From: a virus
Direction: 5' to 3' (one strand)
DNA: 21,520 bases
IMG/VR virus record: IMGVR_UViG_3300044634_002056
Location: 1-21,520 of that record
Shown here: positions 5,433 through 21,520 of the stretch, in pieces
Layout: every line of letters starts with the position of its first letter
Position numbering within the stretch: position 1 is the stretch's first letter
Notes under the pieces: model-generated
Database searches by the model: none
Told to the model about the DNA's origin: nothing
The model's input: only the letters and a program-made list of their open reading frames with translations
Position numbers and translations under genes: made by a program

Positions 5433-8400
5433 ATGGCAACAAGACAGACCAGATTAGTAATTAAAAATAACACAGTACCAAGTGCTCCTTTTTCGGGGGC
5501 AACGTTACTTAAAGGTGAGGCAATTGTAAATACCGCTGATGGTATTTTAATGTTCTCTGGGGTAACTTCATCCTCAGCTAATTGGACACCAGCTGGTCCA
5601 GGTGGTAATGCTACATTTTTTGAGGTTGGTTCTAATCTTTATGATTTAAAAATTAGAAATCAAATAACAGCCTATAGTGGTGTAACTAACTTATCTGGTA
5701 AATTCTTATCTGGTACAACAAATGGTTTCGTACTTGCTGATATATCAGATATTGCTGGTGTTGATTCATATACAACTGGTGCAACTTGGAATCCAAATGT
5801 TTTAACACTTAAATTAAACAACGGTAAGCCAAATGTATCGGTTAATATTAATGCATTTACAGCTTTAACTGTTGGTAATTTAACAGTTACTGGTACAACA
5901 GCTTTAAGTGGTTCTGCTTATTATTATGGTACAGTTAGTGGTACAAATCCAAATGAATTAATCAATCTTGATTATTTAACTGGATTCAGTCAAACAAATG
6001 ATGTTTATGTAACTGGTAGTACATTAACACCAGCTACTAATAATACGGATTCACAAACATCAACATTATTATACCATGGCGTTCCTCTTGGTGGTGGTTA
6101 CACAATTGTAACTGATAACACATTTACAACTGGTGGTACATATGATAATAATACAGCATTAATTACGTTTGATAAAAACGATGGTTCAAGTTATACCGTT
6201 AGTTTAAGTGGTATTGACGTTAACGATACTTATGTTACTGGTGGTACTGTAACAAGTGGTGGTACTTTAAATTTAGTTAGAAATGATAGTGTAACGGTAT
6301 CAATACCAAAAGTTACATATTGGACATCTGGTTCAACTGGTAGTTTTGCAATTAAAGCAATTAACAATAGTGGTCTTGATTCTACAGGTGATAGAGCTGT
6401 TGCTTGGGGTAATGGGACATTAGCATCTGGTGATGATTCAACTGCTTGGGGAATTCAAACATCGGCAACAACTTCTGGTAGCACTGCTAGTGGTTTTCAA
6501 ACATTAGCAAGTGGTTTATATTCACATGCTGAAGGTGGTGAAACAACTGCTATTGGTAATTATTCACATGCTGAAGGTCAACAAACAACTGCTCGTGGTA
6601 ATTTTTCACATTCTGAAGGGTATCAAACAATTGCTAGTGGTGCTACTTCACATTCTGAAGGTTATTTAACAAGTGCTATCGGTACATCTTCACATGCTGA
6701 AGGTGATTTTACAACAGCATTAGGTGATTTTTCGCATGCTGAAGGTAATCAAACAATAGCGAGTGGTAGTTCATCACATGCTGAGGGTGTGTTAACAAAA
6801 GCATTGGGTAATTATTCACATGCTGAAGGTTATTTTACAACTGCAATTGGTGATTATTCACATGCTGAGGGTCAGTTTACAATAGCTAGTGGTATTTCAT
6901 CACATGCTGAAGGTGCTAATACAATAGCAAGTGGTCAATTTTCACATTCAGAAGGATTCCAAACAACTGCTAGTGGTGATTATTCACATGCTGAGGGTCA
7001 GTTTACAATAGCTAGTGGTGACCGTTCTCACGCTGAAGGGTATGAAACAATTGCTATTGGTAATTTTTCACATTCTGAAGGTTATCAATCAACCTCAAAT
7101 GGTGAATCTTCACATGCTGAAGGTCAAGGTACAATAGCTAGCGGTGACCGTTCACATGCTGAGGGTGATGGTACAATAGCTATTTCTAATGGTGCACACA
7201 GTGAAGGTGGTAGTACAAGGGCTGGATATAAAGGATTCTCAGTTGATGGTGTGGTTAATGGTGTCATAACACTTAATTCTTCATATGGTGACGTTACTAG
7301 TGAGTTTTTTAGTGGGACTGTTTATTTAACTAATAGTCCTGATGATTTATATACCTTTACTACCGTCACATTTAGTTCTAGCACAAACACTGAAATTATT
7401 TTAAATGATATAAGTGTAAATCTTGGTGGTGTTGCTGTTGTTGACATTGGTAATTTAAATAGTGCTTTTGCGGATGGTGTTGATGGTAATAGTGCTCACG
7501 CTGAAGGTGTCTCTTCTAAAGCTTTAGGTTCAGCATCACATGCTGAAGGTGAGGGTAGTATCTCAGTTGGTACAGCATCACACGCTGAAGGTGGTGAAAC
7601 AACTGCTGGTGGTTATTCGTCACATGCTGAAGGTTATTTAACAACTGCTATTGGTGAATCATCACATTCTGAGGGTTTTTCAACTAGGTCATTTGGTGAC
7701 CGTTCACATACTGAGGGTGAATATACAAACGCTTATGGTGTAGCGGCGCACGCTGAAGGTAATCAAACAATAGCAAGTGGTGCATCATCACATGCTGAAG
7801 GTTTGGGCACAAGTGCGATTGGTAGTCAGTCACATTCTGAGGGTTATGGTACAAAAGCTATTGGTAGTCAGTCACATGCTGAAGGTTATTATACAACTGC
7901 TATAGGTATTGCTTCACATACTGAAGGTTCTCAAACAACCGCAAATGGTGATTATTCACATGCTGAGGGTTATGGTACAACGGCAATTGGATTGCTTTCA
8001 CATGCTGGTGGTGCAATTACAGTTGCATCTGGGATAACATCTTTTATACATTCATCTGGTTCAACGGTAACTGGTGATAGAAGTGTTGTATTAGGTGGTC
8101 AAGGAATCACAGGCACAACAAACGATACTGTATATGTACCTTATTTGAACTTAAATTATGTTCCAACACTTAATAATAGTAACACACAAATTTTAAGTAG
8201 AAATACAGCTACTGGTCAAGTAGAATATACAAACTTAAGTGCATTTACATCTTTAGATACTTATGTTACTGGATTTACTTATAACCCAGCAACTAACGTA
8301 TTCACAATTAAACAAAATCAAGGTCAACCAGATTTAACCGCACAAATAAATTCAGTTACTGGTTTAACAATATCTACTTTAGGTGCTAATAGAGTTGTTT

Positions 8401-8972
8401 ATACAACAGGTTCTGGAACATTAACAACTGAATCTGGATTTGAATATTCAGCATCAGCAAATACTTTAACAGTTGGTAACATTAATGTTCAGAATGCTTC
8501 TGGTACAACAGCTAATATTGGTCAAGGTGGTTTAGTTATTGGTTCTGGTGGTTCATTAGCATCTCCTGGTATTGGTGACTTAACAGTTCATGGCGATTTC
8601 ACCGTGTTTGGTACAACAACAACTGTTGCAACTAGTGAATTATATGTTGAAGACCCACAAATTACATTAAACTATTCAACTGGTTCAACAACTGTTACTT
8701 CAGTTTCTTCTGGACTTAGAATACAAGATGGTAATGGAGTTGTAAGTGGTGATGTTTATTTCACAATAGGTCAAATGCAAAACCTAACTGGTTTAACACC
8801 TACTGAAATACCATCAGTTGCTGAATATACTGGATTAACTGGTTACGCAAATAGAGGTTGGGTTTCTCAATTAAATGATATTGTAATAAGAAATACAAAC
8901 TTAAATGAAGGTTCACCAAATGGTGTCAGAGTATTGGCTGAATTTGACACGCTCGATGGGGGTCAATATTGA
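5433..8972 (+). CDS. Tail fibre with YadA/Hep_Hag-type SHAEG beta-roll repeats
   Basis: This is a 1179-residue fibre protein. Residues 1-60 form an attachment-like segment (VP, then LLKGEAIVNTADGIL) shared with the next gene. Residues about 60-310 are beta-rich linker with YVTG modules. From about 320 to 590 and again from about 686 to 870 run 14-residue repeats of the form SH[AS]EGxxTxAxGxx, 17 SHAEG-like units in the first block and 13 in the second. They resemble YadA-head/Hep_Hag repeats, which form trimeric left-handed beta-rolls, and the SHAEG repeats of some phage appendages. A non-repeat insert (about 594-685) separates the blocks. After about 870 come another YVTG module, an LPTLNN-type module, and a C-terminal region starting GDLTVHGDFTVFGTTTT (about 1047) that is typical of phage fibre proteins. 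It ends in DGGQY and is the only gene here ending in TGA. No Peptidase_G2 or S74 chaperone domain is seen. A trimeric adhesive fibre is likely; the receptor is unknown. Confidence 0.85.
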   Translation: MATRQTRLVIKNNTVPSAPFSGATLLKGEAIVNTADGILMFSGVTSSSANWTPAGPGGNATFFEVGSNLYDLKIRNQITAYSGVTNLSGKFLSGTTNGFVLADISDIAGVDSYTTGATWNPNVLTLKLNNGKPNVSVNINAFTALTVGNLTVTGTTALSGSAYYYGTVSGTNPNELINLDYLTGFSQTNDVYVTGSTLTPATNNTDSQTSTLLYHGVPLGGGYTIVTDNTFTTGGTYDNNTALITFDKNDGSSYTVSLSGIDVNDTYVTGGTVTSGGTLNLVRNDSVTVSIPKVTYWTSGSTGSFAIKAINNSGLDSTGDRAVAWGNGTLASGDDSTAWGIQTSATTSGSTASGFQTLASGLYSHAEGGETTAIGNYSHAEGQQTTARGNFSHSEGYQTIASGATSHSEGYLTSAIGTSSHAEGDFTTALGDFSHAEGNQTIASGSSSHAEGVLTKALGNYSHAEGYFTTAIGDYSHAEGQFTIASGISSHAEGANTIASGQFSHSEGFQTTASGDYSHAEGQFTIASGDRSHAEGYETIAIGNFSHSEGYQSTSNGESSHAEGQGTIASGDRSHAEGDGTIAISNGAHSEGGSTRAGYKGFSVDGVVNGVITLNSSYGDVTSEFFSGTVYLTNSPDDLYTFTTVTFSSSTNTEIILNDISVNLGGVAVVDIGNLNSAFADGVDGNSAHAEGVSSKALGSASHAEGEGSISVGTASHAEGGETTAGGYSSHAEGYLTTAIGESSHSEGFSTRSFGDRSHTEGEYTNAYGVAAHAEGNQTIASGASSHAEGLGTSAIGSQSHSEGYGTKAIGSQSHAEGYYTTAIGIASHTEGSQTTANGDYSHAEGYGTTAIGLLSHAGGAITVASGITSFIHSSGSTVTGDRSVVLGGQGITGTTNDTVYVPYLNLNYVPTLNNSNTQILSRNTATGQVEYTNLSAFTSLDTYVTGFTYNPATNVFTIKQNQGQPDLTAQINSVTGLTISTLGANRVVYTTGSGTLTTESGFEYSASANTLTVGNINVQNASGTTANIGQGGLVIGSGGSLASPGIGDLTVHGDFTVFGTTTTVATSELYVEDPQITLNYSTGSTTVTSVSSGLRIQDGNGVVSGDVYFTIGQMQNLTGLTPTEIPSVAEYTGLTGYANRGWVSQLNDIVIRNTNLNEGSPNGVRVLAEFDTLDGGQY
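6518..7215 (+). repeat. SHAEG repeat block 1, 42-nt period
   Basis: About 17 tandem degenerate units of 42 nt, each encoding 14 residues on the pattern SH[AS]EGxxTxAxGxx. Some copies are exact at the DNA level: a 45-nt stretch starting at 6849 recurs at 6975, an offset of 126 nt (three units). This suggests recent unequal exchange within the array. Confidence 0.9.
7490..8015 (+). repeat. SHAEG repeat block 2, 42-nt period
   Basis: About 13 further 42-nt units in the same frame of the 1179-residue fibre gene, beginning at AHAEGV and degenerating at SHAGG near 7996. It is separated from block 1 by about 275 nt of non-repeat sequence. Confidence 0.88.
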
Positions 8973-9004
8973 CGTTGTTCTATAAACATACTAAATTTAA
9001 AAAT

Positions 9005-9038
9005 AAAAAAGGGGGATTATGTCACCCTTTTTTATTTT
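9005..9038 (+). terminator. Rho-independent terminator after the 1179-residue fibre gene
   Basis: The left arm AAAAAAGGGGGA (9005-9016) pairs with TCACCCTTTTTT (9022-9033), with one G-A mismatch, around the loop TTATG. A T-rich tail (ATTTT) follows. It sits 32 nt after the stop at 8972 and should end the upstream operon; the A-run and T-run make it potentially bidirectional. Confidence 0.8.
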
Positions 9039-9043
9039 ATATC

Positions 9044-9056
9044 ATATTTATAATTA
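9044..9056 (+). promoter_or_regulatory. Candidate late promoter before the 2236-residue fibre gene
   Basis: ATATTTATAATTA is another copy of the intergenic TATTTATAA motif, just after the terminator and 69 nt before the ATG at 9126. A new promoter is expected here because the terminator separates the gene from those upstream. The hairpin at 9056-9073 would lie in its transcript. Confidence 0.4.
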
Positions 9057-9080
9057 AGGGTTATATAACCTTTACTTTTT
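9056..9080 (+). terminator. Low-GC hairpin with T-tract (possible second terminator or leader hairpin)
   Basis: AAGGGTT (9056-9062) can pair with AACCTTT (9067-9073, one G-T pair) around ATAT; its core GGTTATATAACC (9059-9070) is a perfect palindrome. ACTTTTTT follows. The form is that of a weak terminator, but it follows a candidate promoter, so it could be an attenuator or a protein site. Confidence 0.4.
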
Positions 9081-9089
9081 TAATAATAC

Positions 9090-9103
9090 CTCTTAAATAA
9101 GAG
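9090..9103. repeat. Inverted repeat CTCTTA-AA-TAAGAG
   Basis: A perfect 6-bp inverted repeat with a 2-nt centre lies 22 nt before the ATG of the 2236-residue fibre gene. It is too tight to form a good RNA hairpin and fits a small dimeric protein-binding site better. No function is established. Confidence 0.35.
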
Positions 9104-9125
9104 TAGACATAATAACGTCATAAAT

Positions 9126-12100
9126 ATGGCCAATAGACAAAATACATTCCTTTTAAAAAGGTCAAATGTACCTGGAAAAGTACCGACACCTGGTGACTTA
9201 AAATTAGGTGAATTAGCAATAAATACTGCTGATGTTATTTTATATGCTTCTGGTACAACCTCAAATTCAATATTACCAATTGGTTGGGATAGAGTCAGTA
9301 GAACTGGTGATACAGTAACTGGTAATTTTGTAATTAATGGTGGTCTAACGGCTAATACAATATCAGCAACAACTTATTTAAATTTACCAGTATTATCTGG
9401 TGAATACTTACCATTAAGTGGTGGAACGGTAAGTGGAGGTACAATATTTCAAAGTGGTCTAACGGCTAATACAATATATACTGATTATATTGATTTTAAT
9501 ACAACTCCAACCGTACCATCACCAACTGGTGGTACATTATATTTTGACTCTAACGAAAATGCATTATCATATAAACCAATAACAAATCAAAATGATGTTA
9601 CAGTTAACTTGGGTCAAGAATCATTGATAAGGATATATAATGATTTACCAACAACAATACTTAACGGACAGGTTTTACATATAACTGGTGCAACTAGTGG
9701 GGTACCTACGGTTGCATTAGCAAACGCATCAAAATTGGGGACAACTTTTTTACAAGGTTTAGCTCAGAGTTCTGGTGTTGCAACTCATGACATACCAAGT
9801 GGTGAATATGGTTTTATGACCAATTTTGGTATTGTTAGAGATTTAAATACAACTGCATTTACTGTAGGTCAAGAAGTATTCTTATCTGATACTATTGATG
9901 GTGCTTTAACAAATGACCCAAACAATATAGCATACACATCAAGAATCTCAACAGTAGGTTTTTGTTTAGAATCAAATGCGACAACTGGTAAGATTTTAGT
10001 AAGTATTACAAATGAAAACCAAGTACAAAGTTTAACTCAACAAGAAGTTAACGTATTACTGGGTAACACGATATCAACTGGTGCTTATTTTTATACTGGT
10101 GCAACAACCGCATCCACAACAACCATAAATGTATCACCAATGAGGGGTTGGATTGTTTATAATACAGGTCCAACATATGCAACAAACCCATTGGTTTTAA
10201 ATATCTATTATAGTGGTGGTACAAATTTACCTGTTTCAGGTTTAACTAGTTCATTTGATACTTATTTATTAGTTAATAGTGGTGGTACACTATATCAAAC
10301 AAATACATACCCAACACCACAAGAAAGAAGACAAAACATATTTTTAGGTAGGGTTGTTCACCCAAATAAAACAACAATACTTAATGTTGAACAAAGTGTT
10401 GATTATGACGTTTCACCGTTATCATCACTTCGTGATTTATGGGTCCCTATAAAAATTATTAATGAAGGTGTGGTACCAAGTCCTAATGGTGCTAATTTAA
10501 CATTTAAAACATCATCAGGTACTTTTTGGGGTAATGGTATAGGTTTTCCAACGGATGAATTAAATCCTAATGCAATTACAGTTCCAGGATATCTTCCAGC
10601 TTCTTTTTATTATACAACACAAACTGGTGGAACATTTACAGTGACAACCACAACTGTTGATACAACAAAATATGATGTTAATGGTGTTGCTGTAAATGTG
10701 CCTGGTTCTGGGAATTACACAACACAAAGGATTTATATGTCTCAAAGTGGTGTTATTAGGTTACAATATGGTCAAAGTTTTTATTCAACATTGGCAAAGG
10801 CAATTGCTGCAATACCAAGTGAAACTTTTGTTGTTAATCCAGATAACTCAATTGATTGTACATTGATTGGTTTATTAACTGTAAAAGATGGTACTGGTGA
10901 TTTAAGTGATACTGATGATGCGGTATTTACCCTTGTTTCAAAATTTGGTGAGGTATTAGGTGGTACTGCTGGTATATCAACAACAACATTACAACAAGCT
11001 TATAATAATTCAGTAAACCCAGAAATTGTTACTAATTCTACATTAAACGGTGTACAATTTAAAGGTGGTACTGGTAATGATAATGATAAAAATATCATAA
11101 TAGAAACTAATAGTGGGACAGAAACTGCTTGGATTACTGCTTCTGGGGATTCTAGATTCCATTCAGTTTCTTCTAATACAATTTCTGATGTAACTAGATT
11201 GTCATTTAATAATTCACATACTGGTACAACAGCTGTTGGACAATTAACGTTTAATACATCTGAGGGTACTTTAAATCTCGGTATGTTGGGTGGTAATGTT
11301 ACACAACAAATAGGTTTAGAAAGTTATTATCAAGTTATAAACACAACAACTGTAACTGGATTAACAAATGGTAGTGTGATTGCTTCAGCTGGTGTGGATA
11401 TTTCAACTGGAAAAATAGTTGGTAGTTATATGATTGCTGATGGTTCATTACCTTACTATGTTACTTTAGGTATTGCAACTGAAAATATAGCAAGTGGGGG
11501 TACTGGCTACGTTAATCAATTTGGTATTGTTAGGGATATTGATACTACTGGTGCACCTTATGGTGAAACTTGGTTACAGGGTGATATATTATATGTATCA
11601 CCAACAATACCTGGTGGATTAACAAATGTTGAACCTAATGTACCTAATTTAAAAATACAAATAGCTATTGTATTAAAATTAGACGCTATAAATGGTAGTA
11701 TATTTGTTAAGGAGTCTTTGGGTTATAATTTATCAAATTTACATGATGTTGAAAACTCTGGTGGTGAAGCTAATGGTGATTTGTTATTTTATAGTGCCTC
11801 AACAAATTCTTGGGTTTATGGTAAAGAATTAACTGGTAATTATCAAATTAATGGTTCTTTAACTGCAACAACATATTATGGTAATGGTAGTAATTTAACG
11901 GGTATACCAGATTATTATGTTACTGGTGGTACTTTTTCACCTAATACATTAACTTTAAATAGACAAAATGGTTCTGTAACTATAACTGGATTTACTAGTG
12001 AAATATATGTTACTGGATTCACTTATGATAATGCAAATACATTAACAATAGAACAGACTGGTAATCAACCAGATTTAAATGTTACAATAAATACAGTCAC

Positions 12101-15848: not shown

Positions 15849-17036
15849 ATGAGTTTAATAATTAACGATATAATAATTGAGGGTACTCTTAGTAGTAATA
15901 CCTTATCTGTTAGTTCTGCAACTATAACTAATTTAGTTGTTACTAATATAACTGGTGTATCAACAACTGACTACTACGTTACAGGTGGAACATACTCTAG
16001 TGGTACCTTAACACTAGAAAGAAATGGTCTTAGTGATGTTACAATCACAGGATTTTCAGATGGTACTTTAACTGGTTCTGGTGTTACTAATAAAGTTGCA
16101 TTTTGGTCTGGTGCTAGCGGATTAACCTTTGATAATACTTTTCATTGGGATAATACAAATAAAAGGTTAGGTGTTGGTACATCTTCACCATCACAGAAAT
16201 TACAAATATCTGGTAATACTAGAGTTGATGGTAGTGTTTTTGCAAATAATTTAATTGTTACTGCTGTTACTGGGACTAATATATTTAGTGGTAATACATC
16301 CTCAGATTTAGTTAGAATTACACAAACAGGTAGTGGTAATGCATTTGTTGTTGAGGATTCTGTAAATACGGATTCATCACCATTTGTTATTAATTCTTTA
16401 GGTAATGTTGCAATTGGTACAACAACATTTGATGGTACAAATCCAGAAAAATTAGTGGTTGCACCAGCAAATCAAAATGCGATAGTTGCAAAAGGTCCTA
16501 TATCTGGGTTTATGCAATTAAATATACAAAACACCAGTAATGCTGTAACCGCTTCTTCTGATGTTGTTGCAACCAATGATACTGGTAATGATACCAACAA
16601 TTATATTAATATGGGTATTAATAGTTCAACTTATACTGCTGGTAATATTGGTGTTGCAAATGATGCATATCTTTACAATATTGGTCGTGAGTTGTATATT
16701 GGTAATGCAACAGTTGGTGCTAATGGTAATATTAAATTCTTTGCTGGTAATTTAGCCACAGCAACAACGATGACAATTACAAGTGCAAAGAGGGTTGGTA
16801 TTGGAATTAATAGCCCAACTCAAAAATTACATGTATCTGGTAATTCAATAACAACAGGGACAATTAGTGGGTCTTCTTTAAATGTAACAACATTACCAAC
16901 ACTTAATAACGCTAATTCAGATTTCTTAACAAGGAATTCAGCAACAGGTCAAATAGAAAGGTCAACACCAGGTAATGCAGTATTTTATGCATATGGTATT
17001 GCTTTTGCTCAATCTATAGGGAACTATTTAACTTAA
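15849..17036 (+). CDS. Tail fibre with S74-type stalk motifs but no chaperone domain
   Basis: This 395-residue protein follows the giant fibre by 12 nt. It opens with strands of Ser/Thr/Val (MSLIINDIIIEGTL) and a YVTGG module (about 42-65). NKVAFWSG, then WDNTNKRLGVGTSSPSQKL (about 101-119) and KRVGIGINSPTQKLHVSG (near 320) are of the 'LGIGTxxPxxKLxVxG' type common in phage fibre stalks and in proteins ending in an S74 intramolecular chaperone. Here the protein stops soon afterwards (AQSIGNYLT) with no room for an S74 domain. Its segment LPTLNNANSDFLTRNSATGQ is shared with the 1179-residue fibre. It is probably a trimeric fibre or a fibre segment; the receptor role is unknown. Confidence 0.75.
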   Translation: MSLIINDIIIEGTLSSNTLSVSSATITNLVVTNITGVSTTDYYVTGGTYSSGTLTLERNGLSDVTITGFSDGTLTGSGVTNKVAFWSGASGLTFDNTFHWDNTNKRLGVGTSSPSQKLQISGNTRVDGSVFANNLIVTAVTGTNIFSGNTSSDLVRITQTGSGNAFVVEDSVNTDSSPFVINSLGNVAIGTTTFDGTNPEKLVVAPANQNAIVAKGPISGFMQLNIQNTSNAVTASSDVVATNDTGNDTNNYINMGINSSTYTAGNIGVANDAYLYNIGRELYIGNATVGANGNIKFFAGNLATATTMTITSAKRVGIGINSPTQKLHVSGNSITTGTISGSSLNVTTLPTLNNANSDFLTRNSATGQIERSTPGNAVFYAYGIAFAQSIGNYLT

Positions 17037-17068: not shown

Positions 17069-17497
17069 ATGGCATCAAATACATTTCCAATTTACACAAG
17101 AACAGGTGATGTTCAATGGACAACTAACATGACCGCAGTTAATGCGACAACAGATTTAACTTCTGGTACAATTTATTTGGCATTTACCGCTGATGCAACA
17201 GAAGGTGGTTATGTTCAAAGAATTAGATTTAAACCAAATAATGCAGCTGGTACTAACAATGCTGCAACAGTTGCTAGAGTTTGGTTAAATAACGGTAGTA
17301 CAACAGCAACTGCTGCAAATAATGTATTTATCGATGAAATTTCATTACCAGCAACAACTGGTTCTGGTACAGCTGCAATACCAGTTTATGAATTACCTTT
17401 AAATTTCGCAATGCCTCCAGGTTATACGATATATGTAACACTTGGTACTGCTGTTGTTGGTGGATACCGTGCAACAGTTATTGGTGGTAAATATTAA
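17069..17497 (+). CDS. Small conserved phage structural protein, fibre-associated
   Basis: This 142-residue, mostly beta protein opens MASNTFPIYTRTGDVQW. Its pattern is one I recall from many phage and prophage hypothetical proteins: N-terminal P-x-x-x-R-x-G-D-V-x-W, then GTIYLAFTADATEGGYVQRI (about 31-50), RVWLNNGSTTATAANNVFID, then lipid-like strand PLNFAMPPGYTIYVTLG, ending in a Gly-Gly-x-Tyr. A jelly-roll-like decoration or fibre-tip role would fit, but the function is not known. It is 32 nt from the preceding gene and 6 nt from the first glycine-rich adhesin, so it probably belongs with them. The C-terminus IGGKY resembles that of two other fibre proteins here. Confidence 0.6.
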   Translation: MASNTFPIYTRTGDVQWTTNMTAVNATTDLTSGTIYLAFTADATEGGYVQRIRFKPNNAAGTNNAATVARVWLNNGSTTATAANNVFIDEISLPATTGSGTAAIPVYELPLNFAMPPGYTIYVTLGTAVVGGYRATVIGGKY

Positions 17498-17503
17498 TAC
17501 TAT

Positions 17504-18433
17504 ATGTTAGATGTTTTAAATATCCCTAGACCAGAATTAAATAACTGGGTTTTTTACACTACTGCATTTGATGCAACATCAACAACACATTGGCAAATTT
17601 GGCAAAAACCAAAATATGCTAAATTTATTTGTTTTTATGTTGTTGGTGGTGGAGCTGGTGGTGGGGGTGGTCAACTTACCGCTGGTTTGGCTAGAAGAGG
17701 TGGTGGAGGTGGTGGTTCATCTGCTATCACAAAGGGAATATTCCCATCTGATTTATTACCAGATACTTTATACATACTAGTTGGTAAAGGTGGTGTAGGT
17801 GGTGCTGGTGGGGTTAATGGAAACTCTGGTGGTTTATCATACGTATCAACTGTGGCTAATACACAAACACCAAATGTTATTTTGGCAAGTGGCGCAATAG
17901 CACCAGTTGGGGGTCTTCAAAATGGTGGTGCTGGGGCGGCTGGGACAGTTTTTGCTCAAACAGCTGGATTTCAGTCTTACTTAGGTATCATTAATACAAC
18001 TGCTGGTCAGGTTGGTGCTACTGGTGGGGCTAATACTGGTGGTGCTGGTAACTCAGTTACGATAGCATCAATTAATAATAGTGGTGGTGCTGGTGGTGGG
18101 GGTTCATCTACAGCCGCAGTTAATGGCGCTGGTGGTTCTATAGTTGCCACAACCGTTACGCAAGTCATAACTGGTGGTGCTGCGGGTGGTACAAATGCTG
18201 GTCAAATAGGTATTGCATCATTTATTCCATCTTTAAATTCATCAAACCTAACTGTACCATTTTTAACTACGGGTGGTGCTGGTGGTGGTGCAAATGGGGC
18301 AGCTGGACAAACTGGTGGTGCTGGTGGTAATGGTTCCTTCGGTTCTGGTGGTGGGGGTGGTGGTGCTGGAGCTACTAATGGTGGTGCTGGTGGTAACGGT
18401 GGTGATGGTATTGTAATAATAACTGTTTTATAA
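17504..18433 (+). CDS. Glycine-rich adhesin-like protein, copy 1 of 3
   Basis: This 309-residue protein opens with a short non-repetitive part (NNWVFYTTAFD, then HWQIWQKPKYAKF at about residues 26-38), then becomes glycine-rich with Gly runs around 49-55 and 66-71. A conserved ILPD-type segment (SSAITKGIFPSDLLPDTLYI, about 72-91) leads to strand SGGLSYVSTV and repeated GGAGG tracts to the end (GGDGIVIITVL). Glycine-rich tracts of this kind form polyglycine-II helix sandwiches in the gp38 adhesin of phage S16, a receptor-binding tip; a similar role is inferred here. It has two close paralogues immediately downstream. No signal peptide or enzyme motif is seen. It starts 6 nt after the previous stop with no Shine-Dalgarno sequence. 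Confidence 0.7.
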   Translation: MLDVLNIPRPELNNWVFYTTAFDATSTTHWQIWQKPKYAKFICFYVVGGGAGGGGGQLTAGLARRGGGGGGSSAITKGIFPSDLLPDTLYILVGKGGVGGAGGVNGNSGGLSYVSTVANTQTPNVILASGAIAPVGGLQNGGAGAAGTVFAQTAGFQSYLGIINTTAGQVGATGGANTGGAGNSVTIASINNSGGAGGGGSSTAAVNGAGGSIVATTVTQVITGGAAGGTNAGQIGIASFIPSLNSSNLTVPFLTTGGAGGGANGAAGQTGGAGGNGSFGSGGGGGGAGATNGGAGGNGGDGIVIITVL

Positions 18434-18443
18434 CAAATAAAAT

Positions 18444-19346
18444 ATGGATGTCTTTCATTTTCCAGATTCAAATAAAATACAATGGGTATTTAACACTAAC
18501 GGTGGTGTAAACTCTTGGCAAATTTGGCAAAAACCACCTAATTGTAAATTTGTAAACTTCATGCTAATTGGTGGTGGAGGTGGTGGTGCTGGTGGTGGTA
18601 CTGGGGGTGCTGGTACAAACAGAATTGGTGGTGGGGGCGGTGGTTCTTCTGCTATATCTAAAGGATTTTTTAATGCGAATGTTCTACCAGATATTTTATA
18701 TATTCAAGTTGGTCCAGGTGGTCTAGGTGGTGCTACTGGTGTAAATGGTACAGCTGGTTCATTATCTTACGTGTCTTTTGAACCAAATACTACTGCGGTA
18801 AATGTGTTATTTAGAAGTGGTAATGGTGGTGCTGGTGGTGGTACGGCCGCTGGTGTTGGTGGTGGTGCTGGTACTTTATTTACACAAACTAATGGGTTAC
18901 TTGGTAATTTAGGTTTTTTTCAAGGTACAATAGGTACTGCTGGAGCATCTGGAGTTTCAGCCGCTAATGGTAACTCAATTACAATATCATTTATAACAAC
19001 TGGTGGCGCTGCGGGTGGTGGTGCTTCTGGTGCTGCAAGTTTTAATGGTGGGAATATTACGGGTTTAGGTAATATACCAACTATTACTGGCGGTGTTGGC
19101 GGTGCTACAAATGATGGTGGTTCTGGATTTCAACCAATTAGACCATCTTTTAATTCATCTAATTTATCACCATTATTTTTTACAGGTGGTGCTGGTGGTG
19201 GTGGTTTTAGAACTGGTGGTATTGCTGGTGCTGGTGGTAATGGTGCTTACGGATGTGGTGGGGGCGGTGGTGGTGCTGGTACTAATGGTAATGGTGGTGC
19301 TGGAGGTCGTGGTGGAGATGGAATTGTAATAATAACTACTTGGTAA
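18444..19346 (+). CDS. Glycine-rich adhesin-like protein, copy 2 of 3
   Basis: This 300-residue paralogue of the preceding protein starts 10 nt after its stop. It shares the opening SWQIWQKPPNCKFVNFMLIG (about residues 24-43), the block SSAISKGFFNANVLPDILYI, the SLSYVSFEPNTT strand, a non-glycine insertion near FQPIRPSFNSSN, and the terminal GGRGGDGIVIITTW. The variable parts are the loops between glycine tracts. The FQPI-xx-xFNS-x-N segment is shared with copy 3 and a shorter version (IPSLNSSN) with copy 1. The role is inferred as for copy 1: a tip or accessory adhesin. Confidence 0.7.
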   Translation: MDVFHFPDSNKIQWVFNTNGGVNSWQIWQKPPNCKFVNFMLIGGGGGGAGGGTGGAGTNRIGGGGGGSSAISKGFFNANVLPDILYIQVGPGGLGGATGVNGTAGSLSYVSFEPNTTAVNVLFRSGNGGAGGGTAAGVGGGAGTLFTQTNGLLGNLGFFQGTIGTAGASGVSAANGNSITISFITTGGAAGGGASGAASFNGGNITGLGNIPTITGGVGGATNDGGSGFQPIRPSFNSSNLSPLFFTGGAGGGGFRTGGIAGAGGNGAYGCGGGGGGAGTNGNGGAGGRGGDGIVIITTW

Positions 19347-19358
19347 TCTTTATATAAT

Positions 19359-20291
19359 ATGGATGTATTTGGTTTAATAGATGGTAATATTTTAAAACAG
19401 GTTTTTTTGACAAACGGGACAACTAACTCTTGGCAAGTTTGGGAAAAACCTAAAAACTGTAAATTTGTTAATATCTTAATTATCGGTGGTGGTGGTGGAG
19501 GTGGTGCTGGTTTCGGTGCTTTCATTAATACTGCAACTGGTGGTGGAGGAGGTGGTTCTTCTGCTGTAACAAAAGGTTTTTTTCAAGCAAATTTATTACC
19601 CGATAGACTATATATACAAGTAGGTCCTGGTGGTGATGGTGGTACGAACAACCCAATTGTTGCTGCAACCGCTGGTTCAGTTTCATACGTCTCAATACAA
19701 CCAAATACTACTGCTGGTAACGTAATACTTGCGAGTGGTCAATTAGGTGGTGGTGCTGGTGGTCCAGGTACAGGTGGTGCTGGTGGTACCGCAGGGTCCG
19801 CTGGTATTGTTTTTGTACAAACTAATTTTTATTTATCAACATTAGGAATAGTACAAACAATAGGTGGTCAAAGTGGTGGTGCTGGTGGTGCTAACACACC
19901 GATACCTGTAACAATAGCGTTCACCACATCGGGTGGTGCTGGTGGTGGGGGTGTTACTGCTGGTGGCACTGGTTCTAATGGTGCTAACATAACAGGTACG
20001 GGTTTTGTACCAACTACTGTTGGTGGTAGTGGATTGGTTGTATTAAATGGTGGTAGTGGTGATTCTGGATTTCAACCGATTCTTCCAAATTTTAATTCTT
20101 TTAATAGATATCCATTATTCACAACTGGTGGTGCTGGTGGTGGTGCTTCTATCTTAGCAATTGGTGGTACTGGTGGTAATGGTGGTTATGGCTCTGGTGG
20201 TGGAGGTGGTGGGGGTTCATATGTTTCTACAACATCTGGTGGTGCTGGAGGTAGAGGTGGAGATGGTATTGTAATAATAAATTCGTTTTAA
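19359..20291 (+). CDS. Glycine-rich adhesin-like protein, copy 3 of 3
   Basis: This 310-residue third paralogue starts 12 nt after copy 2. It has SWQVWEKPKNCKFVNILIIG (about 24-43), SSAVTKGFFQANLLPDRLYI, the strand SVSYVSIQPNTT, and ends GGRGGDGIVIINSF. It is closer to copy 2 than to copy 1 in its opening and in the FQPILPNFNSFN segment. Its last codons are followed by an AT-rich 47-nt spacer and the next SHAEG fibre gene, with no visible terminator. Confidence 0.7.
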   Translation: MDVFGLIDGNILKQVFLTNGTTNSWQVWEKPKNCKFVNILIIGGGGGGGAGFGAFINTATGGGGGGSSAVTKGFFQANLLPDRLYIQVGPGGDGGTNNPIVAATAGSVSYVSIQPNTTAGNVILASGQLGGGAGGPGTGGAGGTAGSAGIVFVQTNFYLSTLGIVQTIGGQSGGAGGANTPIPVTIAFTTSGGAGGGGVTAGGTGSNGANITGTGFVPTTVGGSGLVVLNGGSGDSGFQPILPNFNSFNRYPLFTTGGAGGGASILAIGGTGGNGGYGSGGGGGGGSYVSTTSGGAGGRGGDGIVIINSF

Positions 20292-20338: not shown

Positions 20339-21520
20339 ATGCCTATTTCTTATATTATAAACAACAACGACTCAACTTTATCTGGTCAAACAATACTTGG
20401 TGATTTAAACATTGTTGGAACAATGTCAGCAACCACGTATTTAAATTTACCAATGTCTGGACCAACTGTTTGGACATCAGGTTCAACTGGTGCGTATTCT
20501 ATTAAAGTAGTAAATGATACATCAACAGATGCAACTGGTAATTATTCTGTTGCTGAAGGTCGAAATACAACAGCTAGTGGTCAACATTCACATGCTGAGG
20601 GTAATAATACAACAGCTAGTGGTAATCAATCCCATGCTGAGGGTAATGCAACAATAGCTAGTGGTTTGTCATCTCATTCTGAAGGTACTAATACAACCGC
20701 AAGTGGTGATTTTTCACATGCTGAAGGTAATCAAACAATTGCATCTGGTAATTCATCACATGCTGAAGGTGAACAAACAACTGCAAGTGGTGATTACTCA
20801 CATGCTGAGGGTAATGCAACAATAGCTAGTGGTTTGTCATCTCATTCTGAAGGTCAAGGTACAATTGCAAGTGGTAATAACGGAGCGCACGCTGAGGGTA
20901 GAAATACAATAGCCAGTGGTACATCGTCACATGCTGAAGGTTGGGGTACTGGTGCTATTGGTGATTTTTCACATGCTGAATCTAGAAATACAAGGGCAAG
21001 TGGTAATGCTTCACATGCTGAAGGTTCTGGAACAACCGCATCAAGCACAGCTGCACATGCTGAAGGTGTTAATACAACAGCTAGTGGTCAATTTTCACAT
21101 GCTGAGGGTAATGCAACAATTGCTAGTGGTTTCGCATCACATGCTGAAGGTCGAACTACAAGGGCTGTTGGTCCCGAATCACATGCTGAAGGTAGAGGTA
21201 CAACAGCTAGTGGTTTAATTTCGCATGCTGAAGGTAGAAATGCAAGAGCATTAGGTGATATTTCACATGCTGAAGGTGATACTACAACAGCATTAGGTAC
21301 AACATCACATGCTGAGGGTAATGCAACAACAGCTAATGGTCAATATTCACATGCTGAAGGTAATTCAACAATTGCTAGTGGTACATCTTCACACGCTGAA
21401 GGTGTTAGTACAACCACAATTGGTGATTTTTCACATGCTGAAGGTCAAAATACAACAACTATAGGTACAGCATCACATTCTGAAGGTTATTATACCACAT
21501 CAAACGGACAGTATGGTGCA
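20339..21520 (+). CDS. SHAEG-repeat tail fibre, 3' end missing
   Basis: This open frame of 394 codons runs from the ATG at 20339 to the right edge without a stop. Residues 1-42 are a short beta leader (MPISYIINNNDSTLSGQTIL, then SATTYLNLP, shared with the giant fibre). Residues about 43-60 (TVWTSGSTGAYSIKVVND) match the segment just before the repeat block of the 1179-residue fibre (YWTSGSTGSFAIKAINN). From about residue 70, 23 units of the 14-residue repeat SHAEGxxTxAxGxx run to the edge, with minor variants such as SVAEG, AHAEG, SHSEG and SHAES. The repeats are expected to form a trimeric YadA-head-like beta-roll. The C-terminus, and whether it carries a chaperone or autoprotease domain, lies outside the window. 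Confidence 0.85.
   Translation, partial: MPISYIINNNDSTLSGQTILGDLNIVGTMSATTYLNLPMSGPTVWTSGSTGAYSIKVVNDTSTDATGNYSVAEGRNTTASGQHSHAEGNNTTASGNQSHAEGNATIASGLSSHSEGTNTTASGDFSHAEGNQTIASGNSSHAEGEQTTASGDYSHAEGNATIASGLSSHSEGQGTIASGNNGAHAEGRNTIASGTSSHAEGWGTGAIGDFSHAESRNTRASGNASHAEGSGTTASSTAAHAEGVNTTASGQFSHAEGNATIASGFASHAEGRTTRAVGPESHAEGRGTTASGLISHAEGRNARALGDISHAEGDTTTALGTTSHAEGNATTANGQYSHAEGNSTIASGTSSHAEGVSTTTIGDFSHAEGQNTTTIGTASHSEGYYTTSNGQYGA
20545..21505 (+). repeat. SHAEG repeat array, 42-nt period, reaching the right edge
   Basis: 23 tandem units of 42 nt encode the 14-residue SHAEG repeat. A stretch of more than 45 nt beginning with GGGTAATGCAACAATAGC at 20641 is repeated exactly at 20809, an offset of 168 nt (four units), showing recent duplication inside the array. 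Confidence 0.9.

Follow-up and report, generated by a model that had tools for sequence, protein, structure and literature searches.

The window, a 21.5-kb viral DNA fragment (21,520 nucleotides) analysed as a whole, encodes a SNF2-type helicase and a long fibre gene with many YadA-head repeats. The part of interest here comprises a shorter fibre gene, a small partner gene that we call g142, and three tandem glycine-rich genes, all on one strand:

15849..17036, + strand: 395-aa fibre protein, proposed tip carrier, with the C-terminal tag at its end
16992..17033, + strand: putative docking tag YGIAFAQSIGNYLT at the C-terminus of the 395-aa fibre, located by the tag profile and its positions
17069..17497, + strand: g142, 142-aa partner, proposed fibre-tip adaptor (or chaperone), found ahead of the glycine-rich array in almost all contigs
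17504..18433, + strand: GLY1, putative position-1 glycine-rich TNF-like tip protein, 309 aa (ORF; PF21722; B1 orthologous clade, support 96/91)
18444..19346, + strand: GLY2, putative position-2 glycine-rich TNF-like tip protein, 300 aa (ORF; PF21722; AlphaFold2 model, pLDDT 92.8; B2 clade, 99/96)
19359..20291, + strand: GLY3, putative position-3 glycine-rich TNF-like tip protein, 310 aa (ORF; PF21722; B3 clade, 90/83)

The ORF positions confirmed that the last three genes are consecutive and have the lengths given in the preliminary description, with spacers of 10 nt and then 12 nt. The alignment likewise bore out their shared opening, block and ending: WQ[IV]W[QE]KP, LPDxLYI and GGDGIVII show little or no variation across GLY1, GLY2 and GLY3. 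GLY1 and GLY3 are 54% and 59% identical to the middle copy, GLY2. All three match Pfam PF21722 (Gly_rich_2) at 38.9, 34.1 and 37.0 bits, respectively, against a gathering cut-off of 24.3, and they have a common domain layout and full length, with no added docking domains. By their sequences, they are Gly_rich_2 paralogues. The same tandem set is present in dozens of further viral contigs, which places it far above chance; in one contig, the GLY2 counterpart is 78% identical.

On either side of this region lies a fibre gene in which YadA-head-like SHAEG repeats form long runs (5433-8972 and 20339-21520); the second of these genes continues beyond the contig end. Between positions 17030 and 20350, the gene leaders are A/T-rich and show no clear Shine-Dalgarno sequence (AAAATATG and TAATATG are two examples), and the GC content is 34%; both features may indicate a Bacteroidota-type host.

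Relatives were collected from viral contigs through pattern and profile scans. Single-protein scans, and those with patterns dominated by glycine, retrieved few or no relatives. When the glycine-rich proteins were compared with cultured phages by tblastn, there was no match, probably owing to low-complexity filtering, whereas the g142 query did find relatives. A search with the neck protein returned no cultured relative, only the record of an uncultured 484-kb phage. The g142 protein of the window had no Pfam, PHROG or PDB match, and no family was assigned to it. Among the loci with upstream sequence, nearly all carry the 142-aa gene directly upstream of the array. The tagged fibre, g142 and the glycine-rich genes, in this order, constitute a conserved cassette. 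It is apparently undescribed: in searches of the open literature, neither the triplet nor the tag nor g142 was found to be described.

We then counted the glycine-rich genes in arrays anchored on g142, using the best 80 of 320 viral-contig matches together with genome and cultured-phage loci, a sample weighted towards the window's relatives and containing near-copies. Three genes were found in 54 of 84 complete arrays, two in 18, one in 8, none in 4 and more than three in 0; when identical g142 tails were dropped, the corresponding counts were 39 (three), 12 (two), 8 (one) and 4 (none). At no fetched locus were more than three seen. In 12 larger contigs (104-318 kb), glycine-rich copies were confined to the cassette, with three copies in 10/12 and two in 2/12, although the metagenomic contigs behind these copy counts may be incomplete. 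In the same 12 contigs, g142 was single-copy apart from one divergent second homologue, located far from the cassette in the 318-kb contig of locus L006 (G001:C1:194148-194582).

Several loci depart from the usual arrangement. L119 keeps all three glycine-rich copies despite inserted genes: a GIY-YIG endonuclease-like gene (PF01541) lies between the first and second copies, and a 342-aa gene with an HEMFH motif, of unknown family, between the second and third (10722-11624 and 8757-9785, respectively). At L222 (4995-6301) and L157 (1360-2909), g142 is followed by a gene without a Pfam match (295 and 372 aa, respectively) in place of the glycine-rich array; by gene order, g142 may therefore carry other kinds of tip too. 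L020 (7248-7991), L081, L103 and L120 encode g142 homologues of ~250 aa with an inserted stretch, mostly next to one glycine-rich gene of greater length; at L020 there are three.

The gene preceding g142 is highly variable between phages, while its C-terminal motif, approximately YGLxxAxxxGN[FY]LT, varies little. In leave-one-cluster-out scoring, 36/48 clusters exceeded the 99th percentile of 720 background tails and 26/48 exceeded the 99.9th. A regular expression for the tag matched 80 genes, 78 of which adjoin g142 on its upstream side; the other 2 are separated from g142 by a small ORF. At L209 and L223, a small DNA-binding-like ORF (...TDQGTISRYIKK...) sits between the tagged fibre and g142. 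Because the tag of the window is on the 395-aa gene, the tip is likely carried by this fibre and not by the larger ones. Only one fibre gene bearing the C-terminal tag precedes each cassette. This finding, together with the lack of other glycine-rich copies in the 104-318 kb contigs, speaks against the suggestion in the preliminary description that the three proteins cap different fibres encoded nearby. At L222, the gene before g142 ends in a tag-like tail although no glycine-rich gene follows g142, a weak indication that the partner of the tag is g142.

In a tree of three lineages, A, B and C, all position-by-lineage groups were monophyletic (9/9, support 90/83 to 100/100), indicating that the positions are stable orthologues and are not freely exchanged. 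Copies within lineage B cluster together, as do those within lineage C, both apart from lineage A. A single origin per position over A, B and C was rejected (p-AU 0.028, 0.0007 and 0.0017 for positions 1, 2 and 3, respectively), and between B and C alone a shared origin was rejected for position 2 only (p-AU 0.01); these p-AU values are somewhat optimistic, as the groups were named after a first tree had been inspected. The triplet therefore either formed more than once, or was homogenised by gene conversion and then fixed anew. In a wider tree, the L020 copies fall away from the other triplets.

We further examined where the positions differ. Residues conserved in a position-specific manner in lineage A comprised 10/90 in the N-arm and core, 3/156 in the loops and 0/54 in the glycine tracts (base versus loops, Fisher p 0.005), a comparison that is supportive only, being biased by loops too variable to count as conserved. 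C-terminal residues beside the N-arms are also among them. The exchangeable kit proposed earlier does not agree with these results, since the positions are stable orthologous groups whose specific residues lie mainly in the N-arm and core. The proposal that the loops between glycine tracts vary held up: indels among relatives concentrate there, and the paralogues diverge most in the loops. Estimates of dN/dS were 0.19-0.51 for loops, 0.16-0.38 for the core and 0.07-0.22 for glycine tracts, with the largest loop excess at position 3 of lineage B (0.51 versus 0.25). These ratios indicate purifying selection throughout, with modestly faster loops and no positive selection in them. The loops outpace the scaffold only slightly, and the comparison leans towards the case that the preliminary description itself named as counting against it, loops as conserved as the scaffold.

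To obtain a structural view, we modelled the middle protein with AlphaFold2. The model built on a 108-sequence alignment reached a mean pLDDT of 92.8 and a pTM of 0.90, superseding one built on a 3-sequence alignment (pLDDT 53.7). Foldseek matched it in the PDB to the Bxb1 tail-tip, the Pam3 fibre gp24 and the glycine-rich domains of ALK/LTK, and the predicted fold is of the TNF-like plus glycine-rich class. Among predicted viral proteins, the top structural matches were proteins of uncultured Caudovirales, many of them named glycine-rich domain-containing. The glycine-rich receptor-tip architecture suggested earlier is thus supported by a confident model and by its matches to Pam3 gp24 and the Bxb1 tail-tip. 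The model begins at the beta-sandwich and lacks a long N-terminal helix; without this helical shaft, GLY2 is related to the tip part and not to a whole Pam3-type fibre.

Taken together, GLY1, GLY2 and GLY3 probably make up the tip with which one tail fibre grips the host. We propose that each protein would form a TNF-like beta-sandwich from which glycine-rich strands extend as a lattice, with the variable loops at the turns. The fibre gene lies two genes upstream of GLY1, and the C-terminal tag of its product would recruit g142 as an adaptor; g142 would seat the glycine-rich head on the fibre, and the head would contact the receptor through its loops. The head of C1q is built from three TNF-like chains, one gene each, and by a similar logic the phage head would contain three different chains (1:1:1) on a homotrimeric fibre. 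Relatives with only one copy would then assemble a homotrimer, and those with two a 2:1 head. The 1:1:1 head is favoured because three copies are both the usual number and the maximum, because each cassette has one g142 and one tagged fibre, and because the position lineages are stable and differ mainly at the base. We hold this reading, a 1:1:1 head joined through g142 to a homotrimeric fibre as its receptor-binding tip, to be just short of evenly balanced. Multivalency, as raised in the preliminary description, is possible inside one such tip. Since a single origin of each position was rejected, the three-gene state was arrived at, or re-established, on more than one occasion, though gene conversion in the tandem array could mimic re-formation. 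Against a universal need for three chains stand the two-copy cassettes (18/84) and the existence of single-copy ones, and docking to different partners would also yield position-specific bases.

The main rival to a heterotrimer is a mixture of homotrimers, in which each protein would make a separate tip and the virion would combine otherwise identical fibres with different tips, gaining a broader host range. This arrangement fits the homotrimeric state of Pam3 gp24 (PMC9608196) and the greatest differences among paralogues being in the loops, and the single-copy Rhodobacter phages imply that the fold can work alone. However, a mixture has no reason to stop at three, whereas copies never exceed that number; the lack of exchange between positions, the distinct conserved residues mostly at the base and the low loop dN/dS also weigh against it, and we regard it as rather unlikely. 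One fibre tip might instead bear the three proteins at different levels, for example one at the tip and the other two forming a collar or lateral heads, with no ring of three. Position-specific N-arms and C-terminal residues would suit different docking sites, and the single tagged fibre and single g142 of each cassette are in keeping with it, but the identical domain layout and full length, with no extra docking domains, make this improbable.

Silent or alternative adhesins serving different fibres, that is, an exchangeable reserve or a kit of the S16-type gp38 sort, would also account for tandem paralogues with variable loops and for the several fibre-like genes within the window. We consider this very unlikely given the stable orthology, the absence of copies elsewhere in large contigs, the placement of the array behind a single tagged fibre and the lack of GP38 homology. 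S16/T2-type gp38 adhesin (6F45, PF05268) is alike in placing variable loops on a polyglycine scaffold at the fibre end, according to the literature. In searches of the same library, S16 gp38 matched PF05268 and PF21721 (GP38 and Gp38_N), and the window proteins matched neither at E up to 1; hhalign of the window glycine-rich proteins against S16 gp38 gave a probability of 2%, and 6F45 was absent among the 50 PDB matches listed for the GLY2 model. By these comparisons, the assignment to gp38 fails at the level of family. The window proteins may nonetheless work in a gp38-like way, because the Pam3 authors see a structural resemblance between gp24 and S16 gp38 (PMC9608196). What stands of the earlier interpretation is therefore the tip architecture and the indels between glycine tracts, and its gp38 membership, exchangeable kit and several capped fibres are not sustained. 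A further alternative, compatible with the other readings, concerns g142, which might be a fibre-tip chaperone like Pam3 gp25 rather than a structural adaptor, with the glycine-rich proteins binding the tag themselves. The Pam3 fibre, which is TNF-like and glycine-rich, depends on a chaperone of its own that is about as large as g142 (162 aa; PMC9608196). On the other hand, g142 precedes the tip genes and does not follow them, and the tag-like tail before g142 at L222 is a weak hint of pairing between g142 and the tag; we think the chaperone role somewhat unlikely.

In its broader form, our proposal is that a heterotrimeric TNF-like polyglycine head on a homotrimeric fibre would be widespread in uncultured phages and would have arisen repeatedly from a single-gene ancestor, with the dedicated g142 adaptor reading a portable tag at the C-terminus of fibres that are otherwise unrelated; we advance it tentatively, as falling somewhat short of an even balance. 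If a fixed orthologous triplet makes one head, the tip gains three different faces, which bears on how receptor choice and its evolution are read from sequence. With the tag and adaptor, the fibre that bears the tip could also be picked out in metagenomic phages by a simple rule.

Among cultured phages, the cassette was found only in phages of Rhodobacter capsulatus that belong to cluster RcC (RcOceanus and kin). RcOceanus genes 21-23 encode a DUF2793 fibre with a tag-like tail, a g142 homologue (about 50% identity) and a glycine-rich tip (hhalign 99.95%); they differ from the window in having a single glycine-rich gene, and are annotated as hypothetical proteins. These phages provide a laboratory entry point. 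Further single-copy cassettes occur in Cypionkella and Pseudorhodobacter genomes and in Zavarzinella formosa; the locus in this planctomycete genome (L152), with g142 and one glycine-rich gene, is presumably a prophage or phage remnant.

Among solved structures, the top PDB match of the GLY2 model is the tail tip of mycobacteriophage Bxb1 (chains Qa/Qb of 9D93; E 6e-10, TM 0.63 by target length), which is a siphophage tail tip; the window proteins have no sequence match in the PDB. In mycobacteriophage Mysterious, gp35, gp36 and gp37, from three consecutively numbered genes, form a heterotrimer of beta-sandwich proteins, but they are baseplate accessory proteins for which a glycine-rich or fibre-tip nature is not shown (PMC13252515). 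The tail fibre gp24 of cyanophage Pam3 (7YPX; Foldseek 7ypx_A E 3e-5, 7yfw_a E 1e-4) resembles the GLY2 model in having a TNF-like domain followed by a distal glycine-rich lattice, and it is a trimer with its glycine-rich domain at the receptor-binding end (PMC9608196). Pam3 gp24 is, however, the product of a single gene, with an N-terminal helical shaft, a homotrimeric assembly and the chaperone gp25 (PMC9608196), whereas the window encodes three shaftless paralogues and g142 behind a separate fibre.
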